From: Bacteroidota bacterium | GTDB taxonomy: Bacteria; Bacteroidota; Bacteroidia; Chitinophagales; Saprospiraceae | Assembly: GCA_030147525.1 (NCBI GenBank) | Contig: JASBVF010000003.1 | Location: 248,001 to 312,000 of the forward strand | DNA length: 64,000 nucleotides | Reading direction: 5' to 3' | Shown here: one piece after another, positions 7,326-34,143 of the stretch | How positions within the stretch are numbered: the first letter of the stretch is position 1 | Layout: each line of letters starts with the position of its first letter | Position numbers and translations under genes: made by a program | Notes under the pieces: generated by a model | Databases searched by the model: none | What the model was told of the DNA's origin: nothing | The model's input: only the letters and a program-made list of their open reading frames with translations

Positions 7326-9782
7326 ATGGCGATTGAATCGAAAGTGGGTTTCGTAAAAAAAGTATCATTGCTGATACTTTTGATGGTAAGCAGTTCCATA
7401 TTCAGTTTTTCACAAAACAGAACCAGCGTTGTTTTAAGCAATGACTGGAAATTTAAAAAAGGAGAAATCGCAGGGGCTTTCCAGCAAGACTTAAATGACT
7501 CCGGCTGGGATGCAGTCACAATTCCTCATGACTGGGCAATCGCGGGGCCATTTATTTTGGATGGAAATGGAAGTACCGGTAAGTTACCCTGGAAAGGTCA
7601 GGGCTGGTATCGGCGGGCGTTGGACATTCCGGCATCAGCTGCCGGGAAGCGGCTTTACCTGATCTTTGACGGCGTCATGGCTTTTCCCAAAATCTATATC
7701 AATGGAAAATTAGCCGGCGAATGGGATTATGGCTACAACTCATTTTTTATCGATATCACAGATTTTGTTAATGCAGGTGGAAACAACCTGCTGGCGGTAC
7801 ATGCCGACACGAGGGAGTTTGACAGCCGTTGGTACCCTGGCGCCGGCATTTATCGAAAGGTACAATTGCTGACAGTCGACCCGGTTCATGTTGCAGTCTG
7901 GGGTACGCAGGTGATTACGCCGATTGTCAAACCACATTATGCGGAGGTCAGAATCAGTACAACTGTCAATAATTTTTCCGGATCAAAAGATTCGGTCCAG
8001 ATCATACATAAAATTCTGGCTCAGACCGGCAGCGTTGTCGCTACAGGAGAGGTGGCAGGATGGGTAAAGAACGGTCAAGGTACCGCCCTGGAGGCCACGC
8101 TAACCTTGTTGAACCCCATTCGGTGGGATACGGAGAACCCTTACCTGTATTCCATTCAGACTGAGGTAGTAAAAGATGGGCAAACAGTTGATCGGTACAA
8201 CACCGATTTTGGTGTTCGCACAATGCGCTTTGACCCTGATCACGGTTTTTTTCTCAATGAAAAACGGGTGCAACTCAAAGGTGTCAATTTACATCACGAT
8301 CACGGCCCGTTGGGTGCGGCATTTTATCCAAGAGCTATGGAACGCCAATTTGAAATTATGAAGTCAATGGGTGTCAATGCCATTCGCAACAGCCACAACA
8401 CTGCCGCCCCTGAAATGCTGGATCTGTGCGACCGGATGGGTCTTTTGTTTTTCAATGAAGTTTTTGATAAATACGATGCAAAAGCAGGCATTCAAGAAGA
8501 TACTGATTTTGAAGCGTTTGCGCATCGCAACATCCGGAACTTCGTTATCAGGGATAGAAATCATCCTTCGGTTTTTTTGTGGAGTGTCGGCAATGAAATT
8601 CCGGACGTTCAGAACAATGACAATAACGGTTTTCAGCGGTTACATACCATGGTCAACTATGTCAGAAAATATGACCCTACCCGCCCGGTCACGCTGGTCA
8701 ATGATCAGATGAATAATGCGAGCCGCCGGCATTTTGACTACTATGACGTGCATTGCTGGAATTATGCCAGGCGTTACCGACTGGCAAGACAAATGGAGCC
8801 TAATAAATCCGTGATAATCAGCGAGTCAGCATCCACAGTGAGCACCCGGGGTTTTTATGAATTTCCTTTGCCGGAAGATAAAACCGCTTTCACAAATTCT
8901 TTGCAGGTAAGCTCTTACGACCTACATGCGCCCTGGTGGGCAGAAATCGCCGATGATGATTTCATGTGGCAACAGGACGAAGCCTACATCGCCGGTGAAT
9001 TCGTATGGACCGGCTTTGATTACCTCGGCGAACCGACTCCTTACGACAATGAAACGGTCAGGAAGATGGGGTTCACTGACAAAGCAGCATCCCGAAGCTC
9101 TTACTTTGGAATTGTGGACCTGGTTGGCATTCCAAAAGACCGCTACTACCTGTATAAAAGTTACTGGAAGCCGGATGAAGATATGATTCACATTCTGCCT
9201 CACTGGAATTGGGAGGACAAAACCGGTCAGGCTGTCCCCATCTTCGTTTACACCAACGGAGATGAAGCCGAGCTTTTTCTCAATGGGCAATCGCAAGGTA
9301 AAAGGCGTAAAAATCCAACCTCCGACAACTCCGTCGAGCGGTTCAGGCTGATGTGGAAGGATGTGATTTATCGACCGGGCGAATTGAAAGTAGTGGCCTA
9401 CAAAGCAGGTAGAAAAATTGGTGAAAAAACGCTAAAAACGGCAGGAAATGCAACTCAACTTCGTCTAACCCCTGACCGGACCACAATCAAAAGCGACGGA
9501 CAGGATCTGTCATACGTACTGGTGGAAGCCCTTGACGCTGCCGGAAATACTGTACCGCTTGCCATGGATAGAATTAATTTAACCATCAACGGAGCGGGTC
9601 ATATTGCAGGAGTGGGCAACGGTAACCCGCAATCATTTGAACCTTTTCAGGCGAGTGTAGTCAACTTATTTTACGGAAAAGCAATGGTCATTGTCCGGTC
9701 GGAAAATTCAGCAGGACCGATACAGCTTGAAGCATCGGCGAAAGGATTAAAAAAAGCCCAGACCAACATCAATGTTGAATAA
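7326..9782 (+). CDS. GH2 glycoside hydrolase, beta-galactosidase-like (DUF4982-type architecture)
   Basis: An 818-residue secreted or periplasmic enzyme that probably removes terminal beta-linked galactose (or glucuronic acid) from oligosaccharides. After a signal peptide (residues 1-30) come the sugar-binding jelly roll, an immunoglobulin-like domain and the TIM barrel. The acid/base is Glu424 in SVGNEIPD; the nucleophile is probably Glu500 in ISESAST, the SETAS-like motif of this subgroup. GEFVWTGFDYLGEPTPY is the conserved barrel end. Two beta-sandwich domains follow, the first of DUF4982 type. It probably shares a transcript with the regulator just upstream and is convergent with a second GH2 gene. 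Exact specificity cannot be read from sequence. Confidence 0.9.
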   Translation: MAIESKVGFVKKVSLLILLMVSSSIFSFSQNRTSVVLSNDWKFKKGEIAGAFQQDLNDSGWDAVTIPHDWAIAGPFILDGNGSTGKLPWKGQGWYRRALDIPASAAGKRLYLIFDGVMAFPKIYINGKLAGEWDYGYNSFFIDITDFVNAGGNNLLAVHADTREFDSRWYPGAGIYRKVQLLTVDPVHVAVWGTQVITPIVKPHYAEVRISTTVNNFSGSKDSVQIIHKILAQTGSVVATGEVAGWVKNGQGTALEATLTLLNPIRWDTENPYLYSIQTEVVKDGQTVDRYNTDFGVRTMRFDPDHGFFLNEKRVQLKGVNLHHDHGPLGAAFYPRAMERQFEIMKSMGVNAIRNSHNTAAPEMLDLCDRMGLLFFNEVFDKYDAKAGIQEDTDFEAFAHRNIRNFVIRDRNHPSVFLWSVGNEIPDVQNNDNNGFQRLHTMVNYVRKYDPTRPVTLVNDQMNNASRRHFDYYDVHCWNYARRYRLARQMEPNKSVIISESASTVSTRGFYEFPLPEDKTAFTNSLQVSSYDLHAPWWAEIADDDFMWQQDEAYIAGEFVWTGFDYLGEPTPYDNETVRKMGFTDKAASRSSYFGIVDLVGIPKDRYYLYKSYWKPDEDMIHILPHWNWEDKTGQAVPIFVYTNGDEAELFLNGQSQGKRRKNPTSDNSVERFRLMWKDVIYRPGELKVVAYKAGRKIGEKTLKTAGNATQLRLTPDRTTIKSDGQDLSYVLVEALDAAGNTVPLAMDRINLTINGAGHIAGVGNGNPQSFEPFQASVVNLFYGKAMVIVRSENSAGPIQLEASAKGLKKAQTNINVE

Positions 9783-9820
9783 TCCGGTTAATATTTGAAG
9801 CTTACCTGTTTGTTCGCAAA

Positions 9821-9855
9821 CAAGATAAGGCATTGGAAACCAATGCCTTATCTTG
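9821..9855. terminator. Bidirectional terminator hairpin between convergent GH2 genes
   Basis: CAAGATAAGGCATTGG at 9821-9836 and its exact reverse complement at 9840-9855 form a 16-bp perfect stem with a 3-nt loop. It lies midway between two facing stop codons. Neither side has a real U-tract. Confidence 0.75.
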
Positions 9856-9875
9856 TATTATCCGGCAAGTTTTAT

Positions 9876-13100
<3,225 letters not shown>

Positions 13101-13144: not shown

Positions 13145-14719
13145 TTAATCTTTCGTGATTTTACTCCCCCACCAATCGGGGTTGGGCTCATAATCATCCG
13201 ACGACATCTTTTTCCGTTCCGTTTCGAGCTTTGGCCAAAGTTCTTTAACGATTCGCTCGTCGTATTGCTTCCGTTTCTCCGGGTCAAACTGTTCATCTAC
13301 CCGGGGGTACGAGGCGTTCACTTCTTGCAGCCAGTTCTCCAGTTTTTGCCTCAGCCTCATGGTGATTTCCAGGAAATCACCGGCCACATTATTTTGCTCG
13401 TAAGGATCTTTTTCCAAATCATACAATTCGTCGCTGCCATCTTCGTAGTAGTGGATCAATTTCCAGTTGCCCTCCCTGATCACGGAGGAAGGATCGCCGC
13501 CCTGGTTCCCGTAATGCGGGTAATGCCAGTACAGCGGTCTTTCCGGCAGCGCTGAACCCTGCTCGATGATTGGCCTTAAGCTGATGCCGTCTGCATGTTG
13601 CTGTTTCAGCAATTCAAGATTGGCATAATCCAGGATCGTGGGGTAAAAATCAGCACCGGTGACGGGGTAGTCGCTTTGCTTGCCATTTGCAGTTTGCCAA
13701 GGCACGCAGATGAGGTAGGGAGCCCGGATACCGCCCTCCCATTGGTAGCCTTTTCCACCCCGGAACGGCAGGTTTGAAGTGGAAAAAGCATCCCCCGATG
13801 CGACCCCTCCATTATCGGAGGTGAAAATCACGATGGTATTTTCTGAAAGACCCAGCGATTCCAACTCCCCGAGTACGACACCGACGGCATCATCCATGCT
13901 TTCCACCAGACCGGCATAGACCGGGTTGTCCTGCGTCTGGCGGATGGGAAGCTTTCGCTCCATTACGAAACCTTGCTCACTGATTCCTTGCGCCTTGGCT
14001 TTTTGCTGGTACTTCGACCATTTTTCCTGCGTCGTTTGAATCGGGCCGTGCACTGCGTAAAATGACAACATGGCAAAGAAAGGCTCTTTTCCGGCTTGCT
14101 GCAAAAATTCAACGGTTTCTTTGGCTAAACGCATGGTGAGGTTTTCACCATGGTAGAGATCGACCAGTTTCGGATTTTTAAAAGGAGAAAAATAGCCGCC
14201 CATCGGACTTCCCTTATCCCAGCCGCCTTTGTTGAGGTCAAACCCGTGATCCTCGGGGTAAGACCCTTCATCCCCCAGGTGCCATTTGCCGGCAAAAAAA
14301 GTCCGGTATCCGTTGGCTTTCATCGCTTCTGCCAGCGTCACATCGTCGTGCGGCAACTGATGCCGGTATTCGGCAGGCAATAGTTTGTCGTGCCGGTCCA
14401 AAGCCCTCCATGCGGTGTCGGTTTTGGCGCCGATCCAATCGGTGATGCCGTGCCTTGCCGCAAATTTTCCTGTCAAAATGGTGGCACGGGATGGGCTGCA
14501 AACCCGGCTGCCGGCATAGCCTTCTGTGAAGATCATGCTCTGTGCAGCTAAGCGGTCAATGTTGGGCGTTTCATAAAATTCACTACTGGTGAAACCCAGG
14601 TCATTTAACCCCAGATCGTCCACCAAAATGAAAAGGACGTTTGGCTTTTCCTGGGCCTTTGCAGCTGCACAAGACAACAGAAATAACCCCAAAACCGATA
14701 GGCTGAAAAAAAAATTCAT
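13145..14719 (-). CDS. Sulfatase, family S1 (formylglycine type) 1
   Basis: Removes sulfate esters from a carbohydrate. A signal peptide (about residues 1-22) and metal site LFILVDDLGLNDLG are followed by the CxPSR maturation motif CSPSRATILTG, with Cys74 converted to formylglycine. GKWHLGDEGSYPEDHGFD, FTSDNGG and a C-terminal subdomain (NWKLIHYYEDGSDELYDL) complete the fold at 524 residues. Only 10 bp separate it from the next upstream sulfatase. The substrate position is not predictable from the motif; the differing flanks in the five sulfatases suggest different targets. No maturase gene is in the window. Confidence 0.93.
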   Translation of the reverse strand: MNFFFSLSVLGLFLLSCAAAKAQEKPNVLFILVDDLGLNDLGFTSSEFYETPNIDRLAAQSMIFTEGYAGSRVCSPSRATILTGKFAARHGITDWIGAKTDTAWRALDRHDKLLPAEYRHQLPHDDVTLAEAMKANGYRTFFAGKWHLGDEGSYPEDHGFDLNKGGWDKGSPMGGYFSPFKNPKLVDLYHGENLTMRLAKETVEFLQQAGKEPFFAMLSFYAVHGPIQTTQEKWSKYQQKAKAQGISEQGFVMERKLPIRQTQDNPVYAGLVESMDDAVGVVLGELESLGLSENTIVIFTSDNGGVASGDAFSTSNLPFRGGKGYQWEGGIRAPYLICVPWQTANGKQSDYPVTGADFYPTILDYANLELLKQQHADGISLRPIIEQGSALPERPLYWHYPHYGNQGGDPSSVIREGNWKLIHYYEDGSDELYDLEKDPYEQNNVAGDFLEITMRLRQKLENWLQEVNASYPRVDEQFDPEKRKQYDERIVKELWPKLETERKKMSSDDYEPNPDWWGSKITKD

Positions 14720-14729: not shown

Positions 14730-16166
14730 TTACCATTTAAACTCCTCCGAATCCGTTCTGGCGGATTCTAAAATTTGCGAAAGCTCATTCACTAAATCGG
14801 GATGTTCGGCGGCTAAATCCCGGCTTTCCGAAGGGTCTGTTTTCAAATTGTACAATTCATATTTCCCCCCTTCGTGGACACTGTTTTTAATCAGTTTCAG
14901 GTCTCCCTTGCGGATAGCCTGACGACCGCCAAGTTCGTGAAATTCCCAGTATAAATAGTCATGTTGAGCCTGATTTTCCTGCCCTGACAAAGCAGGTAAA
15001 AAAGAAATACCATCGGTGTATTCGTGTAAATCGACCTTCAGCATCTCGGCGAAGGTGGGCATAAAATCCCAGAAAGCGGAGACATGGGAATTCTGGCTGC
15101 CGGGCGCAATTTTACCGGGCCATTTTATGATCAAAGGCACCCTGATTCCGCCCTCGTACAAGTCTCGTTTGAAACCTCTCAATCCGGCATTGCTGTCAAA
15201 AAAATCAGGATCGGCCCCGCCTTCTTTGTGCGGGCCGTTGTCGGAGGTGAAAATAAATATCGTCCGGTCTTCCATTCCCAGGTCTTTCACCTTTTTCACC
15301 AGTTCGCCCACCTGGTCATCCAGTAGGGTAACCATGGCGGCGAAGGCGGCGTGGCTATATTTTTGCGAGCCGTATTTTCCCTTTTTGTAGTCGGGACCGT
15401 CATCGACTCCCTCGTATGCTTTTTCGGGCTCGAATTTTCCCGCAAACTGCTGCATGTACTTCTCCGGAGCGAATAATTCAGCGTGGGGAATAATGGTGGG
15501 ATAAAACAGAAAAAACGGCTCGTTTTTGTGCGCATCCATAAACGACAGGGCTTTAGTGTGAATGATTTCGGGAGCGTATTGCCCCTTGTTCAAACCCTGG
15601 TTTTCCTCCAGAACGACCACATCCTGGTTGTTCCACAAATAGTTCGGATAGTAATGATGCGCCAGCCGTTGATCGTGATAACCAAAAAACGTATCAAAAC
15701 CCTGCTTCACCGGATCACCCTCGGAGCCCGAAAATCCCAATCCCCATTTCCCGAAGGCACCCGTCTCGTAACCATTTTCCTTGAATAACTCAGCCAGGGT
15801 AAAGCTGATTTCCGGCAGAGGCATTTGCCCCATGCTGGTTGATTTGTTTCCCCTGATTGGCGTATGGCCGGTGTGCAAACCGGTCATCAGTGCAGAACGG
15901 GAAGGCGCACAAACGGTCGAGCCGGCGTAGTGCTGCAGGAATAACAATCCATCCGCTGCCAGTTTGTCAATGTTTGGTGTTTTAAAACGGGATTGGCCGT
16001 AACAGCTCAAATCACCATATCCCAGGTCATCGGCCATGATGAATACGACGTTGGGCTTTAAGCTGCTAAGGGTCGTGTTTTTGTGTTTATGATTGATGCA
16101 TGATGTCATCAAGGCCAGGAAAATCAGGGAATACGATATTTTTTTTTGGGAGAAACCTGGATCCAT
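14730..16166 (-). CDS. Sulfatase, family S1, 2
   Basis: An arylsulfatase A-like carbohydrate sulfatase. I begin at the ATG at 16166, which gives a compact lipoprotein signal with lipobox MTSC near residue 23; an in-frame ATG at 16193 would add nine residues. The metal site IMADDLGYGDLSCYG, the maturation motif CAPSRSALMTG (Cys86 from this start), GAFGKWGLG and FTSDNGPHKEGG are present. The HTGHTPIRGN segment after the maturation motif is shared with GALNS-like sulfatases, a weak hint only. It is probably co-transcribed with sulfatase 1. Confidence 0.92.
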   Translation of the reverse strand: MDPGFSQKKISYSLIFLALMTSCINHKHKNTTLSSLKPNVVFIMADDLGYGDLSCYGQSRFKTPNIDKLAADGLLFLQHYAGSTVCAPSRSALMTGLHTGHTPIRGNKSTSMGQMPLPEISFTLAELFKENGYETGAFGKWGLGFSGSEGDPVKQGFDTFFGYHDQRLAHHYYPNYLWNNQDVVVLEENQGLNKGQYAPEIIHTKALSFMDAHKNEPFFLFYPTIIPHAELFAPEKYMQQFAGKFEPEKAYEGVDDGPDYKKGKYGSQKYSHAAFAAMVTLLDDQVGELVKKVKDLGMEDRTIFIFTSDNGPHKEGGADPDFFDSNAGLRGFKRDLYEGGIRVPLIIKWPGKIAPGSQNSHVSAFWDFMPTFAEMLKVDLHEYTDGISFLPALSGQENQAQHDYLYWEFHELGGRQAIRKGDLKLIKNSVHEGGKYELYNLKTDPSESRDLAAEHPDLVNELSQILESARTDSEEFKW

Positions 16167-16220
16167 ATTATTTATTTTGAGATCAAAATTCAAATTGTAT
16201 CGTCGGCTTCAGCCGGCGGT

Positions 16221-16419
16221 AAAGTAGCGCTGGCTCAATGACTTTTTAAACGATTTTTTCCCATCCTGTTTTGTCATCGCCGCAGGACGACCTCCTACGT
16301 CGTGAGAGCTGTCAGGGAGGCACTTTCAGCACTCATGACGTAGCAGTTTGTCTTCGACAACGACAAGGTCCGAAGAAAAATCGCTAAAAAAGTCAATTTC
16401 AAACAGCCGACGTTACTTT
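16221..16419. repeat. ~200-bp imperfect palindrome overlapping a sulfatase stop codon
   Basis: The left arm 16221-16260 begins AAAGTAGCGCTGGCT and continues AATGACTTTTT...CGATTTTTTC. It is answered by the right arm 16372-16419, which ends AGCCGACGTTACTTT after AAAATCG...AAAAAAGTCAATT. Within it, CTACGTCGTGAG (near 16295) pairs with CTCATGACGTAG (near 16331) at 11 of 12 positions. A separate small stem (16201-16218) flanks the left end. The right terminus covers the stop codon of the sulfatase ending at 16413. It looks like a palindromic insertion element or decayed MITE. Confidence 0.7.
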
Positions 16420-19517: not shown

Positions 19518-19555
19518 TGGATCAAATGATTGGTGAAACATACATTCCAAAGTCA

Positions 19556-19583
19556 CAAAGTTATTAGCATGCGAGAGGGTCAA
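19556..19583 (-). promoter_or_regulatory. Promoter of the minus-strand sulfatase/beta-galactosidase run
   Basis: The minus strand reads TAACTTTG at 19563-19556, with TTG 17 nt upstream at 19583-19581. It matches the Bacteroidota -7 consensus exactly and supports translation from the ATG at 19517. Confidence 0.5.
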
Positions 19584-19731
19584 TGGGTACTGTAAGATCA
19601 AATTGGGGTGGCAATCCGGTCAGAAACACTTTTCAGCCTCAATATCCGAAGTTTATCAGGTATAAAAACAAAAGTTTAACTCTCTTTGTGAAATCAAAAT
19701 TTCTGTCTGCAAAAACAGCATATTAATTTTA

Positions 19732-23950: not shown

Positions 23951-26900
23951 ATGAAAGCGTTTTTACTCAATCTTTTAGTATTCCTGTCCTTTGGACAGCT
24001 TGCTTTTTCACAAAGCACCATTACAGGTTCGGTCAGCGATACCGATGGGCAGCCGCTGATAGGAGCCACAGTCCTGGTCGAAAATAAGAATACAGGTGAT
24101 GTAACCGATATCAACGGAAACTTCACTGTTGAAGCCTCAAAAGGAGAGGTGCTCTTAATTTCATACACCGGGTATGCGCCGACCAGGGTAACGGTCGGAG
24201 ATGAAACGAACTATTCCATTGTATTGCAGGTAGATGCTACCACCCTCAATGAAGTTGTGGTTGTGGGTTACGGCCAACAAAGAAAAGTAAACCTTACGGG
24301 CGCCGTGGAAACGGTGACCTTTAAGGATGAAGTCAACCAACCGGTCACAAACTCCGGCCAGTTGCTGTACGGCAGGTTTTCGGGAGTTCAATTGACCCAG
24401 ACTTCGGGAAACCCCGGCGCCGACGGATCATCCATCGTCATTCGGGGCATTGGCACTTTCGGCAACAGTACGCCACTCATTGTCATCGACAATATCCAGT
24501 ACGATGACCTTGCCGCATTCAACAACCTTGCACCGTCGGACATCGAGAGCATCACGGTACTCAAAGATGCATCCGCCAGTGCCATTTACGGAGCCAGGGG
24601 AGCCAACGGCGTCATCCTGGTAACCACGAGAAGAGGAACAAAAGACGCTTTTGAAATCAGCTACAACAGCTTTTACGGACGTCAGGATGCTACAGTAAGG
24701 CCTGAGTTTCTCGGTTCCCTCGATTACGCACTGCTCATGAATGAGAAATTCCAGAATCAGGACGGGGCCGGGTTTACGCCAAGGTATACGGATGAGCAGA
24801 TCGAAGCCATAAGAACAGGCAGCTTGCCGGATCAGTTTGCAAATACCAACTGGGCTGACGAGGTTTTGCAACCGGCCACCGTCCAGAATCACAACTTATC
24901 GCTGTCGGGTGGCAACGCCAGCACGACTTACCGCTTTTCGCTCGGATACCTCGGACAGGACGCCATCATTAAGAGTAAGTTTAAAACGGAGCGTTACAAC
25001 CTGAGTTTCAATATTAATTCCAACCTGAAGGACTGGCTTACCCTCAACACGGTTACCAACAGCTTTTGGAAAAGAAACGAAGGCCCTACGGGCGGCCAGA
25101 ATGCTTTCGACGGAGACAACGGCATCATTTATTCTTTCCAGCGGACAGCGCCTACCATCCCGTTATTTTACAGCAACGGCGAATACGGTATCGTGGATGG
25201 CGCCTACCTCGATGACAATGCGTCATTTCTTACGCAGAATCCTTTAAGAAGAGGATTTCTTGGAACCTTTGAAAATGATCAGATCAATTTAAGCCACAGA
25301 ACCGGCTTGAACTTCAAACTCACTGAAAACTTGTCGTTCGAAACAAGCGGCAGTGCCAACATCATTTACAACAATACCTCCGATTTTAGCCCAAGAACTG
25401 CGCTGAACGATTGGGAGGGTAACCTCGTCACCGGTAACCAGTTAAACAGCCTGAGCAATTCAACAAGCCTGCAGTACCGGCTGCTCAACGAAAATATTTT
25501 AAAATACAGCACAAGCTTTGCCGGCGCACACAACGTAAGTGTGTTGCTGGGACACTCGGCTTACCTTTTCAGAAACGATGGTTTCAGCGGTCAGCTGAGT
25601 GGATTCCCAACAGACAACTTACAGGAGTTTAACGCCGGCGGTGTGGTAGACCCAGCCGTTTCCGGCGGCGCTTTCGAAGAAGCGTACCAGTCATTTTTCG
25701 GAAGGATCAACTATGACTACGATGGCAAATACCTTGCGGAATTCAACCTGAGACGGGACGGTTCTTCCAAGTTCAACTCAGCGAACAGATACGGCAATTT
25801 TCCGTCGGCCTCCATCGGCTGGAGGATTTCCAAAGAGCGGTTCATGGAGGATGTTGCCTTCGTCACGAATTTCAAAGTAAGAGCGAGCTGGGGTATCAGC
25901 GGTAACGACAGGATCGGCAACTACATTTTTGCTCAAACCTACAATCCCGGCATTGACTATGTACTCGGCGATGACATGACCGTCGTCGGTGTGGCTATCA
26001 CCAGCCTCGCCAACCCATCCATTCGCTGGGAGGAAACAGAGCAATACGATATCGGTTTGGATTTGAGCCTGATGGATAACAGGATTGAAATCGTTGCTGA
26101 TTATTTCAACAGAAACAGCACTGATATCTTGTACACAAACTTCCCGATTCCGAACACCCTGGGTGTCACCAATCTGGAGGCACAGAATGCAGCTTCCATG
26201 GTAAACAGGGGATTGGAAATGGGTATCAATTACAGAGATAAAATTGGCGGCCTGCGGTATAGCGTGGGTGCGAATTTCACCAGATTCATTAAAAACGAAG
26301 TCACCGGCCTGGGCGACGGAGGAGAAGAAACGATCACGAATACGGACATCATTCGGGTTGGAGAACCATTCAGATCTTACTACGGATATCAGGCCATAGG
26401 AATTTTCCAAAGCCTGGATGAAATAGCGAATTCACCCACCCAGTTCGGAAATGCGAACACCGGCCCCGGTGATCTCAAGTATGCCGACATTTCAGGACCT
26501 GACGGCGAACCTGACGGCGTGGTGGATGCCTTTGACAGGGTCGTGATCGGCAACCCGAATCCTGATCTGCTGGTCAACTTCAACGGTTCTGTTGAATACA
26601 AAGGTTTTGATGTAAACCTGTTGTTCCAGGGTGTTTCCGGCGTGGATCGCCTGCTCATGGGGAATGGCAACTTACCGATGGTGGATGACAGGAGTAACGT
26701 GCTGAAATACTGGCTGGGCAGATGGACACCTGAAAATCCGAGCAACGACCTGCCTCGGGTCGGAGGGCAAAATAACGCAGTCGTATCTTCCTTCTACATC
26801 CAGGATGCCTCTTACCTGAGACTCAAAAACCTGGAGTTCGGATACTCCCTTCCTAATAATGTATTGGAGCGTGTCAACATTCAAAAACTCAGAGTTTTTG

Positions 26901-27031
26901 TGGGTGCTCAGAACCTGTTGACCTTCACTGGCCTCGAAAATTTTGATCCGGAACGAGCCAATGGAAGCCAGAGCAACCGGAACGCTCCTTTGTATAAAAC
27001 AGTAACCTTCGGCGTAAACTTAAAACTCTAA
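23951..27031 (+). CDS. SusC/RagA-type TonB-dependent outer-membrane glycan transporter (PUL 1)
   Basis: Imports oligosaccharides across the outer membrane using TonB energy. The 1026 residues have a signal peptide (1-20), a carboxypeptidase-regulatory-like domain (about 21-100, SVSDTDGQPLIGATV), the TonB-box-like EVVVVGYGQQ stretch, the plug (ISGARGANGVILVTT-type region, here IYGARGANGVILVTT) and a 22-strand barrel ending VTFGVNLKL. No N-terminal signalling extension is seen, fitting control by the HTCS rather than by an anti-sigma factor. The susD partner starts 5 bp after its stop. Confidence 0.96.
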   Translation: MKAFLLNLLVFLSFGQLAFSQSTITGSVSDTDGQPLIGATVLVENKNTGDVTDINGNFTVEASKGEVLLISYTGYAPTRVTVGDETNYSIVLQVDATTLNEVVVVGYGQQRKVNLTGAVETVTFKDEVNQPVTNSGQLLYGRFSGVQLTQTSGNPGADGSSIVIRGIGTFGNSTPLIVIDNIQYDDLAAFNNLAPSDIESITVLKDASASAIYGARGANGVILVTTRRGTKDAFEISYNSFYGRQDATVRPEFLGSLDYALLMNEKFQNQDGAGFTPRYTDEQIEAIRTGSLPDQFANTNWADEVLQPATVQNHNLSLSGGNASTTYRFSLGYLGQDAIIKSKFKTERYNLSFNINSNLKDWLTLNTVTNSFWKRNEGPTGGQNAFDGDNGIIYSFQRTAPTIPLFYSNGEYGIVDGAYLDDNASFLTQNPLRRGFLGTFENDQINLSHRTGLNFKLTENLSFETSGSANIIYNNTSDFSPRTALNDWEGNLVTGNQLNSLSNSTSLQYRLLNENILKYSTSFAGAHNVSVLLGHSAYLFRNDGFSGQLSGFPTDNLQEFNAGGVVDPAVSGGAFEEAYQSFFGRINYDYDGKYLAEFNLRRDGSSKFNSANRYGNFPSASIGWRISKERFMEDVAFVTNFKVRASWGISGNDRIGNYIFAQTYNPGIDYVLGDDMTVVGVAITSLANPSIRWEETEQYDIGLDLSLMDNRIEIVADYFNRNSTDILYTNFPIPNTLGVTNLEAQNAASMVNRGLEMGINYRDKIGGLRYSVGANFTRFIKNEVTGLGDGGEETITNTDIIRVGEPFRSYYGYQAIGIFQSLDEIANSPTQFGNANTGPGDLKYADISGPDGEPDGVVDAFDRVVIGNPNPDLLVNFNGSVEYKGFDVNLLFQGVSGVDRLLMGNGNLPMVDDRSNVLKYWLGRWTPENPSNDLPRVGGQNNAVVSSFYIQDASYLRLKNLEFGYSLPNNVLERVNIQKLRVFVGAQNLLTFTGLENFDPERANGSQSNRNAPLYKTVTFGVNLKL

Positions 27032-27036: not shown

Positions 27037-28581
27037 ATGAAAAAGATATTATTAATCATTCTGCTCCCTTTCACACTCATCCAATGCAGTGATGATTTTC
27101 TGGAGCGTTCCTCACCCACCCAAATAGCTGAGGACAATTTCTGGACGAGCGAGTCTGATGCGTTTCTTGCACTGAACGCAGTGTATTCCTCGCTGCAGTC
27201 GAGGTCTTTGTACGGCGGCAACCTGAACGGCTGGCAAGGATTCCCCGGCTTTGATAATTTAGGTGACAACGCCTTCAATCAGTATAAATGGGAAGGCCCC
27301 GGCCTGTTCATGGAAGGCACTGTTGATCCTTCCAGCGGCCCGATTGGAGCGATTTGGAATAACCTCTATGAAGGCGTTGCACGGGTCAATTCGGTCATCA
27401 AAAATGTGAATGAAATATCTGAAGAATTGATCTCCAAAGAAACGAAAAATGCCTTGTCCGGGCAGGCGTATTTTCTCCGGGGATTGCTTTATTTCAACCT
27501 GGCAGTCTATTTTGAAGATGTTCCGCTGATCACTGCACCTCAAACGCTGGAGGAAGCTTTTGTGCCTAAAAACACCTATGCGGAAGTTACTGCACAGATA
27601 GTGGAAGACTTGAAACTGGCCATCCAATACCTGCCTGAATCCCATCCTAACAGCTTATACGGATATGCTACAAAAGGGGCTGCCCTGTCATTGCTGGCGA
27701 GGGTTCAGTTGTACAACAAACAGTACACCGGCGAATTCGGCGTACTGTCCCTGACGGAGCAGGTCATGGAATTGGGCTATTCCCTGCACCCCGATTATGC
27801 GGAACTCTTTACCCCCGCAGGGGAAATGTCTCCCGAAATCGTGTTTTCCGTCCGGTTTTTAAGAGGCGACGATACGAACAATGGTGAAACATTCTCGGCC
27901 ACCTTCCTGGGAACGCCAAAAGTTGATCAGCGGCCCATGAAAAACCTTGTGAACGACTACTACTGCACGGATGGTTTACCGGTCACTGAATCGCCTTTAT
28001 ACAATCCGGACGACGAACGGGAAAACAGGGATCCAAGAGCCCTGGCCACCATCTATTTCAAAGATGATCAATACCTGGACGACCCGGTAAGAGTCTTTCC
28101 CGGCAATGGCCCGACCGGATACGGCATGAGGAAATATATCAGGAGAGGACCCGATGCGGAAGGCAATGCCGTTTTCGGTGAAGGATCCCAGGATTTTTAC
28201 GTGATCCGCTATGCTGATGTACTACTGATGCGTGCCGAAGCCCTTGCCGAGACAGGCGACGTGAGCGGTGCGACCCAGTTGGTGAACCAGGTTAGAGAAC
28301 GTGTGAATATGCCACGTGTAGAAGACGTCGAAGGAGCCGTAGGTCAGGCACAAATGGTTGAAATTGTAAGGCACGAACGCCGTGTCGAGCTGGCACTGGA
28401 AGGACTCCGGTTCATGGATTTGAAACGCTGGGGAACCGTGGAACAGGCTTTCCAGCGGGCAGCCGCTGACCCAGTGGGTCCATACAATCCGCAATATCTG
28501 GGGAAAAGATCGGAGGTTTTCCCGATCCCACAGTCTGAAATTGATGTGAATCCAAATCTGGTTCAGCATCCTGCCTGGTAA
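27037..28581 (+). CDS. SusD/RagB-type surface glycan-binding lipoprotein (PUL 1)
   Basis: Forms the lid of the SusC pore and binds the glycan at the cell surface. Lipobox LIQC lipidates Cys17, and CSDDFLERSSPTQIAEDNFW is the typical SusD start. Alpha-helical TPR-like repeats follow (GQAYFLRGLLYFNLAVYF), and the C-terminus has RYADVLLMRAEALAE and RHERRVELALEGLRFMDLKRW. Length 514. It is coupled to the preceding susC by a 5-bp gap. Confidence 0.96.
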   Translation: MKKILLIILLPFTLIQCSDDFLERSSPTQIAEDNFWTSESDAFLALNAVYSSLQSRSLYGGNLNGWQGFPGFDNLGDNAFNQYKWEGPGLFMEGTVDPSSGPIGAIWNNLYEGVARVNSVIKNVNEISEELISKETKNALSGQAYFLRGLLYFNLAVYFEDVPLITAPQTLEEAFVPKNTYAEVTAQIVEDLKLAIQYLPESHPNSLYGYATKGAALSLLARVQLYNKQYTGEFGVLSLTEQVMELGYSLHPDYAELFTPAGEMSPEIVFSVRFLRGDDTNNGETFSATFLGTPKVDQRPMKNLVNDYYCTDGLPVTESPLYNPDDERENRDPRALATIYFKDDQYLDDPVRVFPGNGPTGYGMRKYIRRGPDAEGNAVFGEGSQDFYVIRYADVLLMRAEALAETGDVSGATQLVNQVRERVNMPRVEDVEGAVGQAQMVEIVRHERRVELALEGLRFMDLKRWGTVEQAFQRAAADPVGPYNPQYLGKRSEVFPIPQSEIDVNPNLVQHPAW

Positions 28582-28622: not shown

Positions 28623-28690
28623 AGATGGTTTGATGGCTTGGTTGTTGGATGGTGGCGCAAGCCCATGCCATCCGGCAATCCAACCATTTA
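28623..28690. repeat. Imperfect inverted repeat of GGTTGGATGG-type words
   Basis: GATGGTTTGATGG, GGTTGTTGGATGG on the left are matched by CCATCCGGCAATCCAACC on the right around a GGCGCAAGCCC centre. Pairing is imperfect. It lies between susD and the GH128-type gene and could separate their expression. Confidence 0.5.
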
Positions 28691-28728: not shown

Positions 28729-30063
28729 ATGATTATGAAAAAGTATTTAGTACTACTACTCTCTTTATTTTTCATCATAAGCTGCAAGAAGAATGAAATT
28801 GGCGGCTTCGATGAACCACCATTTGTGAACGAACCCCAGGATACTACAGCTTTAAGTAAAAAAGGGGCTGCATTTGCCAATCAGACTAAAGCCTGGTCTC
28901 ACAAAACAAGTCAATTGGGCGCCCACTGGATGTACAGCTGGGGAAATGTCCTGAGAGATGAAATCCCGGAAAACGTTGAGTTCGTCCCGATGTTCTGGGG
29001 AAAAGGATCCGTGAATCAGGATAACATCGACCGCATCAAACAGCTTGTGGCCGATGGCAAAGTAAAGTATGTACTTGGCTTCAACGAGCCCGACGGCGCC
29101 GCCCAGGCCAACATGACTGTGGATGAGGCAATCGCCCTCTGGCCGGAGTTGGAAAAAATCGGCGTGCCGCTCGTATCACCCGCTACAGTTAACCCGAACA
29201 ACGACTGGATGAAGGAGTTCATGAACAAAGCTGATGCGTTGGGCCTTCGGGTGGATTATGTAGCAGTACATCATTACGGCGGCACGAGCGTACTGAACTT
29301 TATCAACAAACTTAAAGAAACACACGAGGCATACAACCGGCCCATCTGGATCACCGAATTTGCAGTGGCCGACTGGAATGCCACCACACCTGAAAACAAC
29401 AAGTACACGGAGGCACAGGTGAGGCAGTTTATGGGACAGGTGCTGCCCGCTCTGGATGACATCGAGTATATTTTTCGCTATGCCTGGTTCGACGGTAAAA
29501 ATGCACCGCTGCATACCTCTGCGTTGTTTGACGAAGATGCCAACATTACACCGCTGGGCGAATTATACGCCGCCCATACTCCCAACCTGAACATCGGCCC
29601 CGGGGTGGACACCGAATTCGAACCGGTAAACGATCCTGATGAATTACTAATCAACGGCGGTTTCGAAACCGGGCAGATTGCCCCCTGGCAGGGCTTCAAG
29701 AATGGCGTCGTCACCTCTGCTACAACTGAAACGCACACCGGAAACTTCTGCGGCCGCATTGAAAACGGTGACGGCTCTTTATTCTACGTTATCGACGTAG
29801 AACCCGAGACCACCTACATCCTGAAATTCTTTTCAAAATGGCGGGAAGCGGTTACCCAATCCTTCTCCGGTAAGATTCGGGACAACGCTGATAACGGATT
29901 GATCTATTCACTGCCCGACATGCCGTCTTCCGATCAATGGCAGGAGACTATCTATGAATTCACCGTACCCGACACAGTGAATCAATTGAAAATGGTCTTT
30001 TACAAAGGCCAGGGATTCCCGCCGTTTTTCATGGATGATGTTTCCCTGAAAGTCAAAGAATAA
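28729..30063 (+). CDS. GH128-type glycoside hydrolase (Asl1-like catalytic domain) with C-terminal carbohydrate-binding-type module
   Basis: GH128 enzymes cleave beta-1,3-glucan. I start at ATG 28729 (MIMKKYLVLLL), giving a lipobox ISC and Cys19; 28735 is equally possible and the frame is open to 28630. The catalytic core (about 55-300) has Glu120 in GFNEPDG as acid/base and Glu210 in WITEFAVADW as nucleophile, with VHHYGG between. Residues from about 305 (ELLINGGFETGQIAPWQGF) form a jelly-roll module like that of the next gene. The GH128 label rests on these motifs; a beta-1,3-linked galactan cannot be excluded as substrate. Confidence 0.82.
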   Translation: MIMKKYLVLLLSLFFIISCKKNEIGGFDEPPFVNEPQDTTALSKKGAAFANQTKAWSHKTSQLGAHWMYSWGNVLRDEIPENVEFVPMFWGKGSVNQDNIDRIKQLVADGKVKYVLGFNEPDGAAQANMTVDEAIALWPELEKIGVPLVSPATVNPNNDWMKEFMNKADALGLRVDYVAVHHYGGTSVLNFINKLKETHEAYNRPIWITEFAVADWNATTPENNKYTEAQVRQFMGQVLPALDDIEYIFRYAWFDGKNAPLHTSALFDEDANITPLGELYAAHTPNLNIGPGVDTEFEPVNDPDELLINGGFETGQIAPWQGFKNGVVTSATTETHTGNFCGRIENGDGSLFYVIDVEPETTYILKFFSKWREAVTQSFSGKIRDNADNGLIYSLPDMPSSDQWQETIYEFTVPDTVNQLKMVFYKGQGFPPFFMDDVSLKVKE

Positions 30064-30073
30064 CACCAACTAA

Positions 30074-30142: not shown

Positions 30143-30916
30143 ATGACAAAAATTAATCTACTCCTTGCTTTTTTACTTACTACTGCTTTTGCCTTTGGGC
30201 AAAATTTAATTGAAAACGGGGATTTTGAAAGCCCCGGAATGTCAGTCGAGGAAGTCCCTGCGCCATGGGGTGGTTTCAAGAACAGAATCGTGATGGATAC
30301 GATCACGAATTCGTTCGCCGGCCAGGTCGAAAACGGGGATGGCTCGCTTTTCCAGGAGTTTTCCGTCGTGGAAGGAGATACCTACAATATCGTATTTGAT
30401 TACAGATGGGTCACTTCCGCTGCCGCCGGTGCTACGCTGAATGTGAGGGTTAAAGGCGCTGCTGACTTGCCGAATAACCTGAACTTGATCGGAGGCATAA
30501 CCGACAACGGATACCTGCTGAACGATACCGTCGATGTATGGCATGTAGGCGCTTTTTCATTTACACCGCCAGCAGGAATAGACAAAGTAAGACTGCTGTT
30601 TTACAAAGCGAATGGCAACCAACCGCTCAACCTGGACAATGTCAGCGTAAACTTACAGGTGGTATCTTCAGTTGCTGATGTGCAGCAGTTCGACGTCGGC
30701 GTATTTCCTAATCCGGCGGCTGACTTCATCCGGTTATCAACCGATAAAATCCTGGATAAAGTTGAAATCTACAACATCACAGGGCAGCTTGCCATGCAGG
30801 AGATTACCCATAACAGCAATGTCTGGATGGATGTCAGCGGACTTCACAAAGGCATTTACATCGTAAAAGTTTACACCGGAGGGGCAGTAGGTTCCTGTAA
30901 GTTGATTAAAGAATAG
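30143..30916 (+). CDS. Secreted carbohydrate-binding-type protein with type IX secretion sorting domain
   Basis: No enzyme motif is visible in its 257 residues. After a signal peptide (1-19) comes a module (about 20-170) clearly related to the C-terminus of the preceding hydrolase: both contain PW-GFKN, then ENGDGSLF, then a YKANGNQPLNLDNVSV / YKGQGFPPFFMDDVSL ending. The last ~75 residues (VFPNPAADFIRLSTD ... GIYIVKVYTGG) are a type IX secretion C-terminal sorting domain. It probably presents the binding module on the cell surface or releases it. Confidence 0.85.
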   Translation: MTKINLLLAFLLTTAFAFGQNLIENGDFESPGMSVEEVPAPWGGFKNRIVMDTITNSFAGQVENGDGSLFQEFSVVEGDTYNIVFDYRWVTSAAAGATLNVRVKGAADLPNNLNLIGGITDNGYLLNDTVDVWHVGAFSFTPPAGIDKVRLLFYKANGNQPLNLDNVSVNLQVVSSVADVQQFDVGVFPNPAADFIRLSTDKILDKVEIYNITGQLAMQEITHNSNVWMDVSGLHKGIYIVKVYTGGAVGSCKLIKE

Positions 30917-30972: not shown

Positions 30973-31000
30973 ATCCTCAATCCAAATCAAACTCCTGTAA

Positions 31001-32422
31001 ATGAAGAAGGTTTTCTTTTTTCTGGCTGTCGCTTCACTGGGCTGGGCCTGCAATTCCGGCTCAGACGGCAGCAACTCATTGCTTACGAACAAAGCGCAGG
31101 AAAACAAGCAGCCAAACATCATTGTCATCGTCATCGACGACGCCGGTTATGCCGATTTTGGTTTTATGGGTTGCCAGGACCTCGATACGCCGCAAATTGA
31201 CAGCCTGGCCAATGATGGCGTGGTGTTTACCGATGCGCACGTCAGCGCCTCCGTTTGCGCCCCTTCGAGAGCGGGTCTGATGACCGGGAAGTACCAGCAA
31301 CGGTTCGGGTTTGAAGCCAACGGAACCGGCTACGGCGATTCGGGCGATATCGGGCTGTCCGATGATGTGGTGACGATGGCCGATGTTTTTCAAAAAAACA
31401 ATTACAAAACCATCGCCATCGGCAAATGGCACCTTGGAGGCACTGTTTCCGATCATCCCAACAACCGGGGCTTTGATGAATTTTTTGGGTTCATCGCCGG
31501 TAGCCGGTCTTATTTCCCTATGGAAAACGCCTCCCCGGAGCACATGCTGCAACGTAACGGGGAACGGGTGGAATTCGACGGATACCTGACGGATGTGCTG
31601 GGTGACCGATCGGTCAGTTTTATCGAAGAAAATAAAGACCAGCCCTTCTTTATGTACCTGGCCTACAACGCCGTTCACACGCCGATGGAGGCTAAAGCAA
31701 CCGACCTCGAAAAATATAAAGATCACCCCCGCCAATACCTGGCAGCCATGACCTGGTCGCTGGATGAGAATATCGGTAAACTGCGAAATAAACTGCGGGA
31801 GTTAAACCTCCTGGAAAACACCCTGATTTACTTCATCAGCGACAACGGCGGCGCCGCTAACAATGACTCCCAAAACGGGCCCCTTAAGGGATGGAAAGGC
31901 AACAAATTCGAGGGGGGGCAACGGGTACCGTTCATCGTGAGCTGGCCTGCCAGGATCAAGGGTCAGCAACAATTTGAGGGACTGACGTCTTCTCTGGATA
32001 TTTTCAGCACCTCGCTGGCCGCAGCCGGCATTGAACCCGGCGATACAGTAGCCCTTGACGGCGTTGACCTCCTACCCTACCTGACGGGAGCAAAAACGGG
32101 AGACCCGCACGAGGCGCTTTTTTGGAGAAAACTGGAGGAGTCGGCCGCAAGGGTTGGCGATTTTAAATTGATCCACCTCAAGGATTACGGTTCAACCCTG
32201 TACGACCTGTCGGACGACCTCAGCGAGATGAACGACCTTTCATCGAAAGATACCGTGATGTTTAATCTTTTGATGAAACAACTATCCGGCTGGGAATCTG
32301 AAATGGCCGAACCGCTCTGGGACGAAGGCCGGCCCTGGATGGACGTTACTTATCATATCCACCAACGATTGATGCAAAACAAAAAAGTTCTGTATAAGTC
32401 ACCTGCCGAAAAAAGCAAATAA
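31001..32422 (+). CDS. Sulfatase, family S1, 5, lipoprotein
   Basis: The only sulfatase on the plus strand of the locus. Lipobox GWAC gives Cys17. IVIDDAGYADFGFMG, maturation motif CAPSRAGLMTG (Cys86), GKWHLGGTVSDHPNNRGFDE, FISDNGGAANND and FWRKLEESAARVGDFKLIH are present in 473 residues. RYQQRFGFE-type sequence (KYQQRFGFEANG) follows the motif, like sulfatase 4. Lipidation and its place after susCD suggest it acts at the surface or periplasm on the imported glycan. Confidence 0.93.
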   Translation: MKKVFFFLAVASLGWACNSGSDGSNSLLTNKAQENKQPNIIVIVIDDAGYADFGFMGCQDLDTPQIDSLANDGVVFTDAHVSASVCAPSRAGLMTGKYQQRFGFEANGTGYGDSGDIGLSDDVVTMADVFQKNNYKTIAIGKWHLGGTVSDHPNNRGFDEFFGFIAGSRSYFPMENASPEHMLQRNGERVEFDGYLTDVLGDRSVSFIEENKDQPFFMYLAYNAVHTPMEAKATDLEKYKDHPRQYLAAMTWSLDENIGKLRNKLRELNLLENTLIYFISDNGGAANNDSQNGPLKGWKGNKFEGGQRVPFIVSWPARIKGQQQFEGLTSSLDIFSTSLAAAGIEPGDTVALDGVDLLPYLTGAKTGDPHEALFWRKLEESAARVGDFKLIHLKDYGSTLYDLSDDLSEMNDLSSKDTVMFNLLMKQLSGWESEMAEPLWDEGRPWMDVTYHIHQRLMQNKKVLYKSPAEKSK

Positions 32423-32499
32423 CCTCCCAATGACGAACCATCCACCACTTTTTGAGCCAAAAAAAAAATAACACCTTCCTCTGTTAAAATCATACATCT

Positions 32500-34143
32500 A
32501 TGCCTGTCTTCAAAACTTTATTGGCGCTTGTCTTGATCGTTTGCCACCTTGGCTTAGCATGCGGCACAGATTATTACGTTCACCCCATCCACGGCAACGA
32601 TGCCTATTCCGGAAAATCAAAACAAGAGGCCTTCAGAACGTTGAAGCAGGCCTCACAGGTGAATTTCCGTCCGGGCGACCGAATCCTGTTGGCTTCCGGT
32701 GAGACCTACCACGGCGGACTGAGCCTTGTCAATCAAAGCGGTAGTCCGGAAAAACCCATAACAGTCACGACCATAGCCTGGGACAGATCGAAGGAATTTG
32801 TCCCTGCATTGATCGATTTCAAAAGTGAACCCAACGGAGTTTTGCTGGACGGTTCCAGTTTTATCCAAATTTCAAATATCCGGTTGACCGGTGACGGGTT
32901 TCACCCGGATTCTGCCATGAATCACAATATGCGATGCGGTGTTTTAATAACCAGCAAGAGCGGCAGGCAGGTCAGTGACATTACGCTGAATGACCTCTAC
33001 CTGTTCAATATTTTCTTTGAAAACGAAGGCTTTACCCGGGGTGAGGACGAAGTGAAAACCGCTAACGGAACGCAGCGGTACGGCTGGGGCATCCGAGTGA
33101 TCAACAATGCCCCCAAATCGTCGATGACATCCATCCGCATCGAGAATTGTGTGGTAAAAAATGTATCGCATACAGGGATCAAGTTTACCGGAGAAGACCA
33201 AAATATCCACCAGATTCACGTGATGGGAAACGAGGTCCGGGAAACCGGCGGCCCTGGAATCCAAATGTCGGAAGTCCGGGATGCTCAGGTGGCAAACAAC
33301 ACCGTCAGCCATACCGGGAGCAACGATGACACCAGGAAATGGGGACGAGGCAGCGGGTTATGGACCTGGGGTAGTTCGAAAGTTTTGATCGAAAAGAATT
33401 CGTTCACGTATGCCAACGGCCCGGGCGATTCTGCCGGAGCGCACATTGATTTTAACTGCGACAACATCATTCTGCAATACAATCTCAGCGCTTACAACGC
33501 CGGCGGCTTTTGCGAGGTGCTGGGCAACACCTACAATTGCGCCTACCGCTACAACGTGAGCATCAACGACGGCCATCGCATCAAAGGGGTGGATGGCGCT
33601 TTTCAGGAGGGTAAAATTTTCTGGCTTAGTGGTTATCAGGGAAATTCCAGAAAAAGAAAGGGGCCGGTGAATTTCTATTTTTACAACAATACCATCTATT
33701 GTGATTCGTCGCTGGTTTCAAAAATCGCCATTGACAATACGAGCAGGGGAATATTCATCGCCAACAACATTTTCTACCTGAAAGGCGGCACCAAAGTGGT
33801 TTTGGGCGATCAATACAAACCTGACACCGGGAACGACGCTCTGGCAGAGAACGTGATCTTTCAGAACAACCTGTTCTTAGATCAAGCCAGTTGGCCGGAG
33901 GGCATTGGCATTAAAGATGCAGCACCCTTGTTCGGCGATCCTGAGTTTAAAAATGGCGGCGGAGGCAGCATCAGAGACTACATTCCGGGAAATGCAAGCC
34001 TCATCCAACGCAATGGTATGGAAGTAAATTTACTTCCGGGAGACAGCACCGGGCTTTGGCAGCCCCTGCATTTGACAAAAGACATTTTGGGAAATCCCGT
34101 CAGTGACACACCTTGCATCGGAGCAGTGAAGCCGTTACCTTAA
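32500..34143 (+). CDS. Right-handed parallel beta-helix protein, putative polysaccharide-degrading enzyme
   Basis: A 547-residue exported protein; GLAC near residue 21 could be a lipobox. The start of the mature part, DYYVHPIHGNDAYSGKSKQE, is the usual opening of secreted beta-helix enzymes. Repeated coils carry Asn-ladder motifs such as VMGNEVRETGGPGIQM, VANNTVSHTG and VLIEKNSFTYANGPGD. This fold is used by PL6 lyases, GH110 alpha-1,3-galactosidases, GH82 iota-carrageenases and others; I cannot choose among them. As the last PUL 1 gene, with no other obvious endo-enzyme for a galactan, it is the best candidate backbone enzyme. Confidence 0.8.
   Translation: MPVFKTLLALVLIVCHLGLACGTDYYVHPIHGNDAYSGKSKQEAFRTLKQASQVNFRPGDRILLASGETYHGGLSLVNQSGSPEKPITVTTIAWDRSKEFVPALIDFKSEPNGVLLDGSSFIQISNIRLTGDGFHPDSAMNHNMRCGVLITSKSGRQVSDITLNDLYLFNIFFENEGFTRGEDEVKTANGTQRYGWGIRVINNAPKSSMTSIRIENCVVKNVSHTGIKFTGEDQNIHQIHVMGNEVRETGGPGIQMSEVRDAQVANNTVSHTGSNDDTRKWGRGSGLWTWGSSKVLIEKNSFTYANGPGDSAGAHIDFNCDNIILQYNLSAYNAGGFCEVLGNTYNCAYRYNVSINDGHRIKGVDGAFQEGKIFWLSGYQGNSRKRKGPVNFYFYNNTIYCDSSLVSKIAIDNTSRGIFIANNIFYLKGGTKVVLGDQYKPDTGNDALAENVIFQNNLFLDQASWPEGIGIKDAAPLFGDPEFKNGGGGSIRDYIPGNASLIQRNGMEVNLLPGDSTGLWQPLHLTKDILGNPVSDTPCIGAVKPLP

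Follow-up and report, generated by a model that had tools for sequence, protein, structure and literature searches.

The 64,000-nucleotide window analysed here (contig C19:248001-312000 of the 7.08 Mb genome of a Saprospiraceae bacterium, GenBank assembly GCA_030147525.1) contains, at positions 2990-34143, a sulfatase-rich polysaccharide utilization locus (PUL). From its gene families, their closest relatives, folds, conserved residues and gene order, we infer that its substrate is probably a sulfated beta-galactan devoid of 3,6-anhydrogalactose and comparable to Codium galactan, with a backbone most likely linked beta-1,3; the probability of this interpretation is put at about 0.58. A sequence-only reading of the same DNA had already proposed a sulfated galactan without 3,6-anhydrogalactose, and this class is supported by the galactose-type sulfatases, the pair of GH2 enzymes, the adjacent galE, galT and galK genes and, in related loci, GH43 enzymes of the exo-beta-1,3-galactanase type.

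The sulfatases and galactose genes

In the locus, Pfam detects five S1 sulfatases inside a stretch of about 20 kb, together with two GH2 enzymes, a beta-helix protein, a hybrid two-component sensor/regulator (HTCS), a SusC/SusD pair, galK, galT and a galE-like gene. The whole genome has 13 matches to PF00884, one of them merely 42 residues long, and random placement brought five of the 13 inside 21 kb in none of 200,000 trials, so the sulfatase cluster is not due to chance. All five proteins carry the C-x-P-S-R formylglycine motif, and the genome has six matches to PF03781 (formylglycine-generating enzyme, FGE, type).

The subfamilies were assigned through the nearest solved relatives in the Protein Data Bank (PDB) rather than through SulfAtlas, with clear score gaps and with labels taken from papers. 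The S1_15-type enzyme matches 7ozc (669 bits) and 9bas (S1_15A, 527 bits), the following group dropping to 175 bits. The S1_20-type enzyme matches 7ana (394 bits) and 7an1 (385 bits), then falls to 216; the sequence of 7an1 is common to 7oqd, 9thu, 9thv and 9thw and corresponds to BT1636, an S1_20 enzyme (PMC13383068). The best relatives of the S1_16-type enzyme are 6ust (408 bits) and 9fo1 (377 bits), both S1_16, and its W95 lies 21 residues after the motif cysteine, the same spacing as between C58 and W79 of an S1_16 enzyme (PMC11760155). The two S1_19-type enzymes are related to 6prm, an S1_19B exo-4S-kappa-carrageenan sulfatase, at 354 bits (first copy) and 377 bits (second copy). S1_15 acts on 6-O-sulfated (6S) galactose (Gal) or N-acetylgalactosamine (GalNAc), S1_16 on 4S-Gal/GalNAc and S1_20 on 3S-Gal(/GalNAc) (PMC10154612), and the set is thus predicted from sequence to cover the 6S, 4S and 3S galactose types. 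None of the five is closest to S1_8, which represents the 2S type in the cascade for lambda-carrageenan, the other sulfatases of the genome having been left untyped; among the best 60 matches listed, 9bb9 (S1_8A) appears for the second S1_19-type enzyme only, at 70 bits. Fucan, ulvan or heparan types had been named as the pattern that would speak against a galactose polymer; this check, made by nearest solved relatives, did not refute the proposal, the five sulfatases being closest to galactose-type enzymes.

The GH2 pair and the Leloir genes are in line with galactose. The first GH2 enzyme has 5t98 (658 bits) and 9bey (624 bits, named a GH2 beta-galactosidase) as solved relatives and scores 863 bits with the NCBIfam model GalB, below its cut-off of 900, while the second reaches 1048 bits with NF052611, above the cut-off of 999. 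In the relatives G395, G402 and G404, too, homologues of galK and galT are located within the locus or next to it. The NUDIX-type regulator of the window sits between galK and the first GH2 gene and, by its position, could control both.

The GH128-type enzyme and the beta-helix protein

Directly behind susD lies a gene for a GH128-type hydrolase with a carbohydrate-binding module (CBM). Its open reading frame (ORF) opens at 28630, but the ATG that starts a signal peptide is at 28735; this peptide, of the lipoprotein type, was recognized by eye, whereas a script run on the longer ORF did not flag one. The closest solved relatives by sequence are GH128 glucanase chains (6uaq, 134 bits). Searched with Foldseek, a structure model (predicted local distance difference test, pLDDT, 81; predicted template modelling score, pTM, 0.61) retrieves first 8j3x (6e-22), the GH128+CBM6 curdlan endoglucanase CBM6E of Saccharophagus (PMC10956234), and then AmGH128_I (TM-score, TMt, 0.85; 32% identity). 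The protein has the (alpha/beta) barrel, the two catalytic glutamates and the conserved subsite residues of GH128: across 25 GH128-type domains, glucanase included, both glutamates, N117, Q124, H179, Y181, W65, W69 and W88 are identical. GH128 enzymes cut beta-1,3 bonds, and these residues indicate an intact catalytic site of the beta-1,3 type; the lipoprotein is predicted to be a surface endo-enzyme. Its CBM part resembles 8xmz, titled a porphyran-binding CBM (TMt 0.85, amid CBM16 structures ranked alike; phmmer E 1.1e-6).

A tree of the 25 domains did not separate the members found in sulfatase loci from the others (4 changes needed, a value as low in 500 of 500 shuffles; long branches). The same loci also contain long GH128-type proteins (L031:8690-10993, L037:12139-14436, L054:432-4304, L071:7907-11791 and L070:8314-14766), which form a second clade, deeply split from the first; it lacks the D213-W214 pair, and both members scanned by Pfam end in a type IX secretion system (T9SS) tail.

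The sequence-only reading had left the family of the beta-helix protein to be assigned, and this can now be narrowed to a GH136-like protein. The six best Foldseek matches of its model (pLDDT 75.8, pTM 0.83) are all GH136 lacto-N-biosidase chains (E 1.7e-15 to 3.8e-13), the next match being at 1.6e-7. In ErLnb136, W548 stacks on galactose, D568 is the acid/base and D575 the nucleophile (PMC7335108); W290, D310 and D317 of the window protein align to these residues if the published numbering is taken to be shifted from the chain index by a constant 2 (an inferred value), and all three are the same in 9 of 9 sequences. The NCBIfam LnbX model matches weakly (2.1e-7, far below cut-off) and over an N-terminal stretch only. 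On paper the protein would work like a GH136 enzyme, and it is a putative member of the family.

Conservation in other genomes

Similar loci are found in Flavobacteriaceae, Balneolaceae and other groups, with Leeuwenhoekiella, Paucihalobacter, Aestuariivivens and Yeosuana among the named carriers. Species genomes were scanned with the GH128 protein as bait, which makes its presence a matter of construction, and 18 loci emerged. Within the stretches of DNA analysed, S1 sulfatase homologues are seen in 15 of them, and homologues of both SusC and SusD, at 63% identity or more, in 14. Contigs L016, L019 and L023 are short and genes missing from them mean little. Among the proteins of the relatives, 25 were scanned by Pfam and the rest were labelled by BLAST against the window proteins or remained unlabelled. 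The wider stretches of 11 loci reveal a divergent layout in most of the flavobacterial ones: one arm carries S1_19-S1_15, often with S1_20, S1_16 and GH2/LacZ, and the other HTCS-SusC-SusD-GH128-CBM-S1_19-beta-helix. In an uncultured Flavobacteriaceae genome (G400) and both Aestuariivivens, the first arm consists only of S1_19, S1_15 and LacZ within the stretch, in Leeuwenhoekiella (G396) the locus is rearranged, and G253 departs from the layout and has no recognized sulfatase.

The bias of the GH128 bait was corrected for with a SusD bait. Under strict limits this gave matches in 4 of 395 genomes of the phylum and, for the Leeuwenhoekiella family, in 7 of 397, and it added only five further loci: G033, G422, two in G724, and G194, the last of which the GH128 search had matched as well. 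An S1 homologue is present in all five, a GH128-type gene in four (in G033 and G194 from the second long-protein clade only) and a GH43_24-type gene in two (G033 and G194). On contig C1 of G724, the related locus L077/L078 has SusC/SusD at 54-56%, the GH136-like gene and several S1 genes, and no GH128-type gene was seen there. A Flammeovirga plasmid carries a similar cluster with GH128-type, GH2 and GH16 genes and two sulfatases. In a Balneolaceae cluster that also has galM, galT and galK, an S1_19 sulfatase is fused with GH16, Fib_succ_major and a T9SS tail (L039:7092-10385, minus strand), the GH16 part being closest to 6t2n and then to laminarinases. Some relatives also encode esterases (SASA, BD-FAE, GDSL) and a GH29-type protein, a hint that the polymer may be acylated or decorated in other ways.

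The linkage is suggested by a GH43 protein located between galT/galK and LacZ in G395, a Flavobacteriales metagenome-assembled genome whose GH128 protein is 68% identical to that of the window. In the PDB it is related to 6eug/6euh/6eui (327 bits), 6euf (191), 3vsf (152), 7bys (132) and 5flw (99), followed by 3nqh (75), some of them deposited under other names (6eug as a beta-glucanase). 6eui (BT3683) and 3vsf (Ct1,3Gal43A) are beta-1,3-galactan enzymes of GH43 subfamily 24 (PMC7939473). At 1e-20, homologues occur in 7 of 16 genome handles (among the 16, G127 and G402 are apparently the same genome); those of other loci are 52-70% identical, three of them checked by Pfam. The homologue adjoins LacZ or lies one gene off in G395, G398, G401 and G404, and in G397 it stands beside LacZ and S1_19, with the GH128 gene some 36 kb away.

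Substrate of the locus

The backbone of Codium galactan is a sulfated beta-1,3-galactan, and GH43_24 enzymes are exo-beta-1,3-galactanases (PMC8406133). For a polymer of this kind, we infer cut sites, localization and order of action as follows. The GH128-type lipoprotein, with its CBM holding the polymer, would cut the chain at the cell surface; SusC/SusD would import the oligosaccharides, which the HTCS would sense. The S1_15, S1_16, S1_20 and two S1_19 enzymes would remove 6-, 4- and 3-O-sulfates, the GH136-like enzyme may trim the chain, perhaps as a biosidase, and the two GH2 enzymes would release galactose, which galK, galT and galE would pass into metabolism through the Leloir pathway.

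Several observations weigh against this interpretation. The window's own genome has no GH43_24-type match (0 at E 1e-20), so that the case for the linkage depends on its relatives; 9 of the 16 handles searched have no such match, and in G396 and G253 the homologue lies elsewhere. In three of the 18 GH128-anchored loci no sulfatase is visible, namely L022, L027 and L023 (the latter on a 5.7 kb contig), and L022 and L027 have neither SusC/SusD nor S1 homologues. The sulfatase subfamilies follow the nearest PDB relative and not SulfAtlas, and the S1_19 calls are based on moderate similarity. The closest relative of the S1_16-type enzyme, 6ust, is described as a 6S-GalNAc sulfatase (PMC11760155), which leaves the exact sulfate position of this enzyme unsure. 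Exo-3S-Gal activity does not fit 3-linked galactose in the middle of a chain and suits only ends or 6-linked branches. Finally, GH136 activity requires a second helical domain or subunit, domain I (PMC7335108), which was not recognized among the window proteins scanned (Pfam, with no specific model used), and the GH128 structures matched by Foldseek are titled glucanases or oligosaccharide-binding proteins. The window GH128-type protein is identical to the glucanase AmGH128_I at 20 of 22 compared positions, aromatic subsite residues included (the differing positions are S148/A and W214/F), so the sequence cannot decide between a galactanase and a glucanase.

In another scenario, held to be unlikely, the GH128-type protein would be a beta-1,3-glucanase of the ordinary kind, and the locus would address either one polymer with both beta-1,3-glucose and sulfated galactose or two polymers together. 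In its favor are the 20 of 22 positions shared with AmGH128_I; Foldseek ranks a curdlan endoglucanase first, and G253 has a related GH128 pair in a SusC/SusD locus with a GH5 gene and without recognized sulfatases. Yet sulfatase homologues accompany GH128 in 15 of the 18 loci anchored on it, a GH128-type gene recurs in four of the five further sulfatase loci anchored on SusD, the CBM is near a porphyran-binding one, and beta-glucan is probably the target of another locus of the window, the GH16-containing one at 52990-63898.

The other candidates are sulfated glycans of different structure. It is improbable that the substrate is a lambda-carrageenan-like or precursor (mu/nu) carrageenan, that is, a highly sulfated chain of alternating alpha-1,3/beta-1,4 galactose free of anhydrogalactose, even though the S1_15-type enzyme (9bas, 527 bits) and a GH2 enzyme (9bey, 624 bits) resemble members of the lambda cascade, relatives of S1_19 and S1_16 act on kappa-carrageenan, and mu-carrageenan would be fitted by 4S plus 6S. 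We know of no role of GH128 or GH43_24-type enzymes on alpha-1,3/beta-1,4 chains. Neither an alpha-galactosidase nor GH150 or GH110 was recognized among the window proteins scanned (Pfam may lack GH150, and the rest of the genome was not searched for GH150 and GH110), and no window sulfatase has a best relative named S1_8. The lambda-carrageenan proposal of the sequence-only reading is thus unsupported, because the published cascade uses S1_8, GH150 and GH110: its cloned enzymes are two GH150, two GH110, one GH2, three S1_8 and two S1_15 (PMC12549532). A keratan-sulfate or mucin-type glycan, whose sulfated chains of galactose and N-acetylglucosamine (GlcNAc) would suit S1_15, S1_16, S1_20, the GH136-like protein, GH2 and the GH16 and GH29 of the relatives, appears very doubtful. 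The sulfatase families used by B. theta on colonic mucin do include S1_20, S1_15 and S1_16 (PMC10154612), GH136 releases lacto-N-biose, and 6t2n comes from a paper on GH16 mucin O-glycanases also active on keratan sulfate (PMC7419316). However, laminarinases come next after 6t2n for the Balneolaceae GH16, Gal-GlcNAc chains are no fitting target for GH43_24-type and GH128 enzymes, and an S1_11-type (6S-GlcNAc) enzyme is the best relative of none of the five sulfatases. No hexosaminidase, sialidase or GlcNAc-catabolic family was found among the window proteins scanned, the linked sugar genes being those of galactose only, and it is because no GlcNAc-directed family was recognized in the window that this substrate is unsupported. 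It seems highly improbable that the locus is of porphyran or agar type and has lost the genes for agarase and anhydrogalactose use. Such an origin would agree with the resemblance of the CBM to a porphyran-binding one and with the Microscilla plasmid pSD15, where a gene annotated as beta-agarase has a relative of the S1_15-type enzyme (68% identity) in its vicinity, but Pfam recognizes no agarase or porphyranase family in the locus, neither of the two GH16 matches of the genome lies there, and the exo-L-galactose-6-sulfatase 7lha, which we take to be a porphyran-type sulfatase, reaches no more than 66 to 86 bits with the five sulfatases of the window. A sulfated beta-galactan, probably beta-1,3-linked, remains our favored substrate.

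Extent of the locus and other genes

SusC adjoins SusD in the locus, with a regulator and carbohydrate-active enzymes (CAZymes) alongside, as in a Sus-type PUL (Table 1). All the genes named by the sequence-only reading (two GH2, five sulfatases, HTCS, SusC/SusD, beta-helix, galT, galK and NUDIX regulator) are confirmed by Pfam, but its list was incomplete, as it missed the GH128-type enzyme with its CBM4_9 and the neighboring T9SS-tail protein, and it started the set at 7326, whereas with the Leloir genes the set begins near 2990. It was right about the lack of GH16, as Pfam finds none among the proteins of 7326-34143; in particular, no GH16 of agarase or carrageenase type is in the locus and both GH16 matches of the genome lie elsewhere, while GH82, GH117, GH127 and GH129 were not searched for genome-wide. 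Pfam recognizes no catalytic domain in the T9SS-tail protein, whose CBM resemblance to the GH128-type protein was judged by eye; relatives carry homologous CBM+GH16+T9SS proteins.

Table 1 Genes of the locus, in window coordinates
Gene product	Position	Strand	Basis
galE-like NAD-dependent epimerase	2990..4012	+	Pfam GDP_Man_Dehyd 180 bits, Epimerase 161 bits
galT, galactose-1-phosphate uridylyltransferase	4106..5128	-	Pfam PF01087/PF02744
galK, galactokinase	5150..6337	-	Pfam PF00288/PF10509/PF08544
NUDIX + winged-helix regulator (NrtR/AraR type)	6535..7269	+	PF21906 (NrtR_WHD) 99 bits, PF00293, PF19368
GH2, beta-galactosidase type	7326..9782	+	Pfam GH2; 5t98, 9bey; NCBIfam GalB
GH2, LacZ-type beta-galactosidase	9876..13022	-	Pfam GH2; NCBIfam NF052611
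S1 sulfatase, S1_16 type (predicted 4S-Gal/GalNAc)	13145..14719	-	PF00884; 6ust, 9fo1
S1 sulfatase, S1_20 type (predicted 3S-Gal)	14730..16193	-	PF00884; 7ana, 7an1
S1 sulfatase, S1_15 type (predicted 6S-Gal)	16413..17972	-	PF00884; 7ozc, 9bas
S1 sulfatase, S1_19 type, first	18093..19601	-	PF00884; 6prm
Hybrid two-component sensor/regulator (HTCS)	19794..23804	+	Reg_prop, Y_Y_Y, HisKA, HATPase, receiver, HTH_18
SusC-like TonB-dependent transporter	23951..27031	+	PF07715, PF13715
SusD-like lipoprotein	27037..28581	+	PF07980 176 bits
GH128-type hydrolase + CBM4_9	28735..30063	+	PF11790; 6uaq 134 bits; Foldseek 8j3x
T9SS-tail protein with CBM-like domain	30143..30916	+	PF18962 46 bits, sole Pfam match
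S1 sulfatase, S1_19 type, second	31001..32422	+	PF00884; 6prm
GH136-like right-handed beta-helix enzyme	32500..34143	+	Foldseek GH136; active-site residues

The second SusC/SusD locus of the window, at 52990-63898, has a GH16 protein with Calx-beta (56051-57229), a GH5/GH2-core-like protein, a major facilitator superfamily (MFS) sugar transporter, a PKD protein and a CBM48-like T9SS protein, and the SusC/SusD set of G253 with the GH128 pair and GH5 is related to it. Outside the window, G000:C46:110147-126094 groups three sulfatases, an FGE-type protein, a GH2-type gene and a GH16 match, and is possibly a second sulfated-glycan locus. The only match of a 1249-residue protein at 40847-44596 is a sub-threshold one to AAA_12 (26.9 vs 27 bits).

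Comparison with known systems

Sulfated galactans from green algae and similar sources are part of marine carbon, and to our knowledge few routes for their degradation have been described. PULs as such are already known, as are these sulfatase families, GH128 and GH136. Among the open-licence PubMed Central (PMC) matches listed, judged by titles and the starts of abstracts, no paper deals with this locus in searches for GH128 together with sulfated galactan, sulfatase or galactanase and for Codium or GH43_24 loci; one of the GH128 searches listed subjects such as fungal secretomes and surveys of rumen or gut. The conserved locus, the defined sulfatase set, the candidate endo-enzyme and the named carrier strains make the question of the substrate directly testable. 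If the GH128-type or the GH136-like enzyme does act on galactan, two CAZyme families would be extended to another substrate, and the practice of PMC11573768, where GH128 genes count as laminarinases, would be partly wrong.

A close parallel is offered by PUL5/PUL13 of Bacteroides plebeius, for the sulfated arabinogalactan of Codium and wine, which likewise target a sulfated beta-1,3-galactan with S1 sulfatases and in which desulfation precedes the cutting of the backbone (PMC8406133). Those loci use a GH43_24 exo-beta-1,3-galactanase, present here in relatives only and not in the window's genome, and S1_8 and S1_14 sulfatases instead of the S1_15, S1_16, S1_19 and S1_20 types; GH128 and GH136, both types of which occur here, go unmentioned in that paper. 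The lambda-carrageenan PUL of Pseudoalteromonas also addresses a sulfated galactan free of anhydrogalactose with related GH2 and S1_15 enzymes, but it uses GH150, GH110 and S1_8, which were not recognized in the window, and its ten cloned proteins include neither GH128 nor GH136 types (PMC12549532). The kappa/iota-carrageenan PULs share S1_19 types, acting there on 4S-galactose, and differ by their GH16 carrageenases, GH167 and use of anhydrogalactose (PMC6923384), no GH16 being recognized in 2990-34143. The GH128 endo-beta-1,3-glucanases AmGH128_I and CBM6E have a fold like that of the window enzyme, which combines it with a different CBM in galactose-sulfatase loci. As for the GH136 lacto-N-biosidases LnbX and ErLnb136, the window protein is only about 20% identical to them, with no helical domain I recognized and no GlcNAc genes recognized nearby, but it has a like beta-helix fold, the galactose-stacking tryptophan and the two catalytic aspartates.

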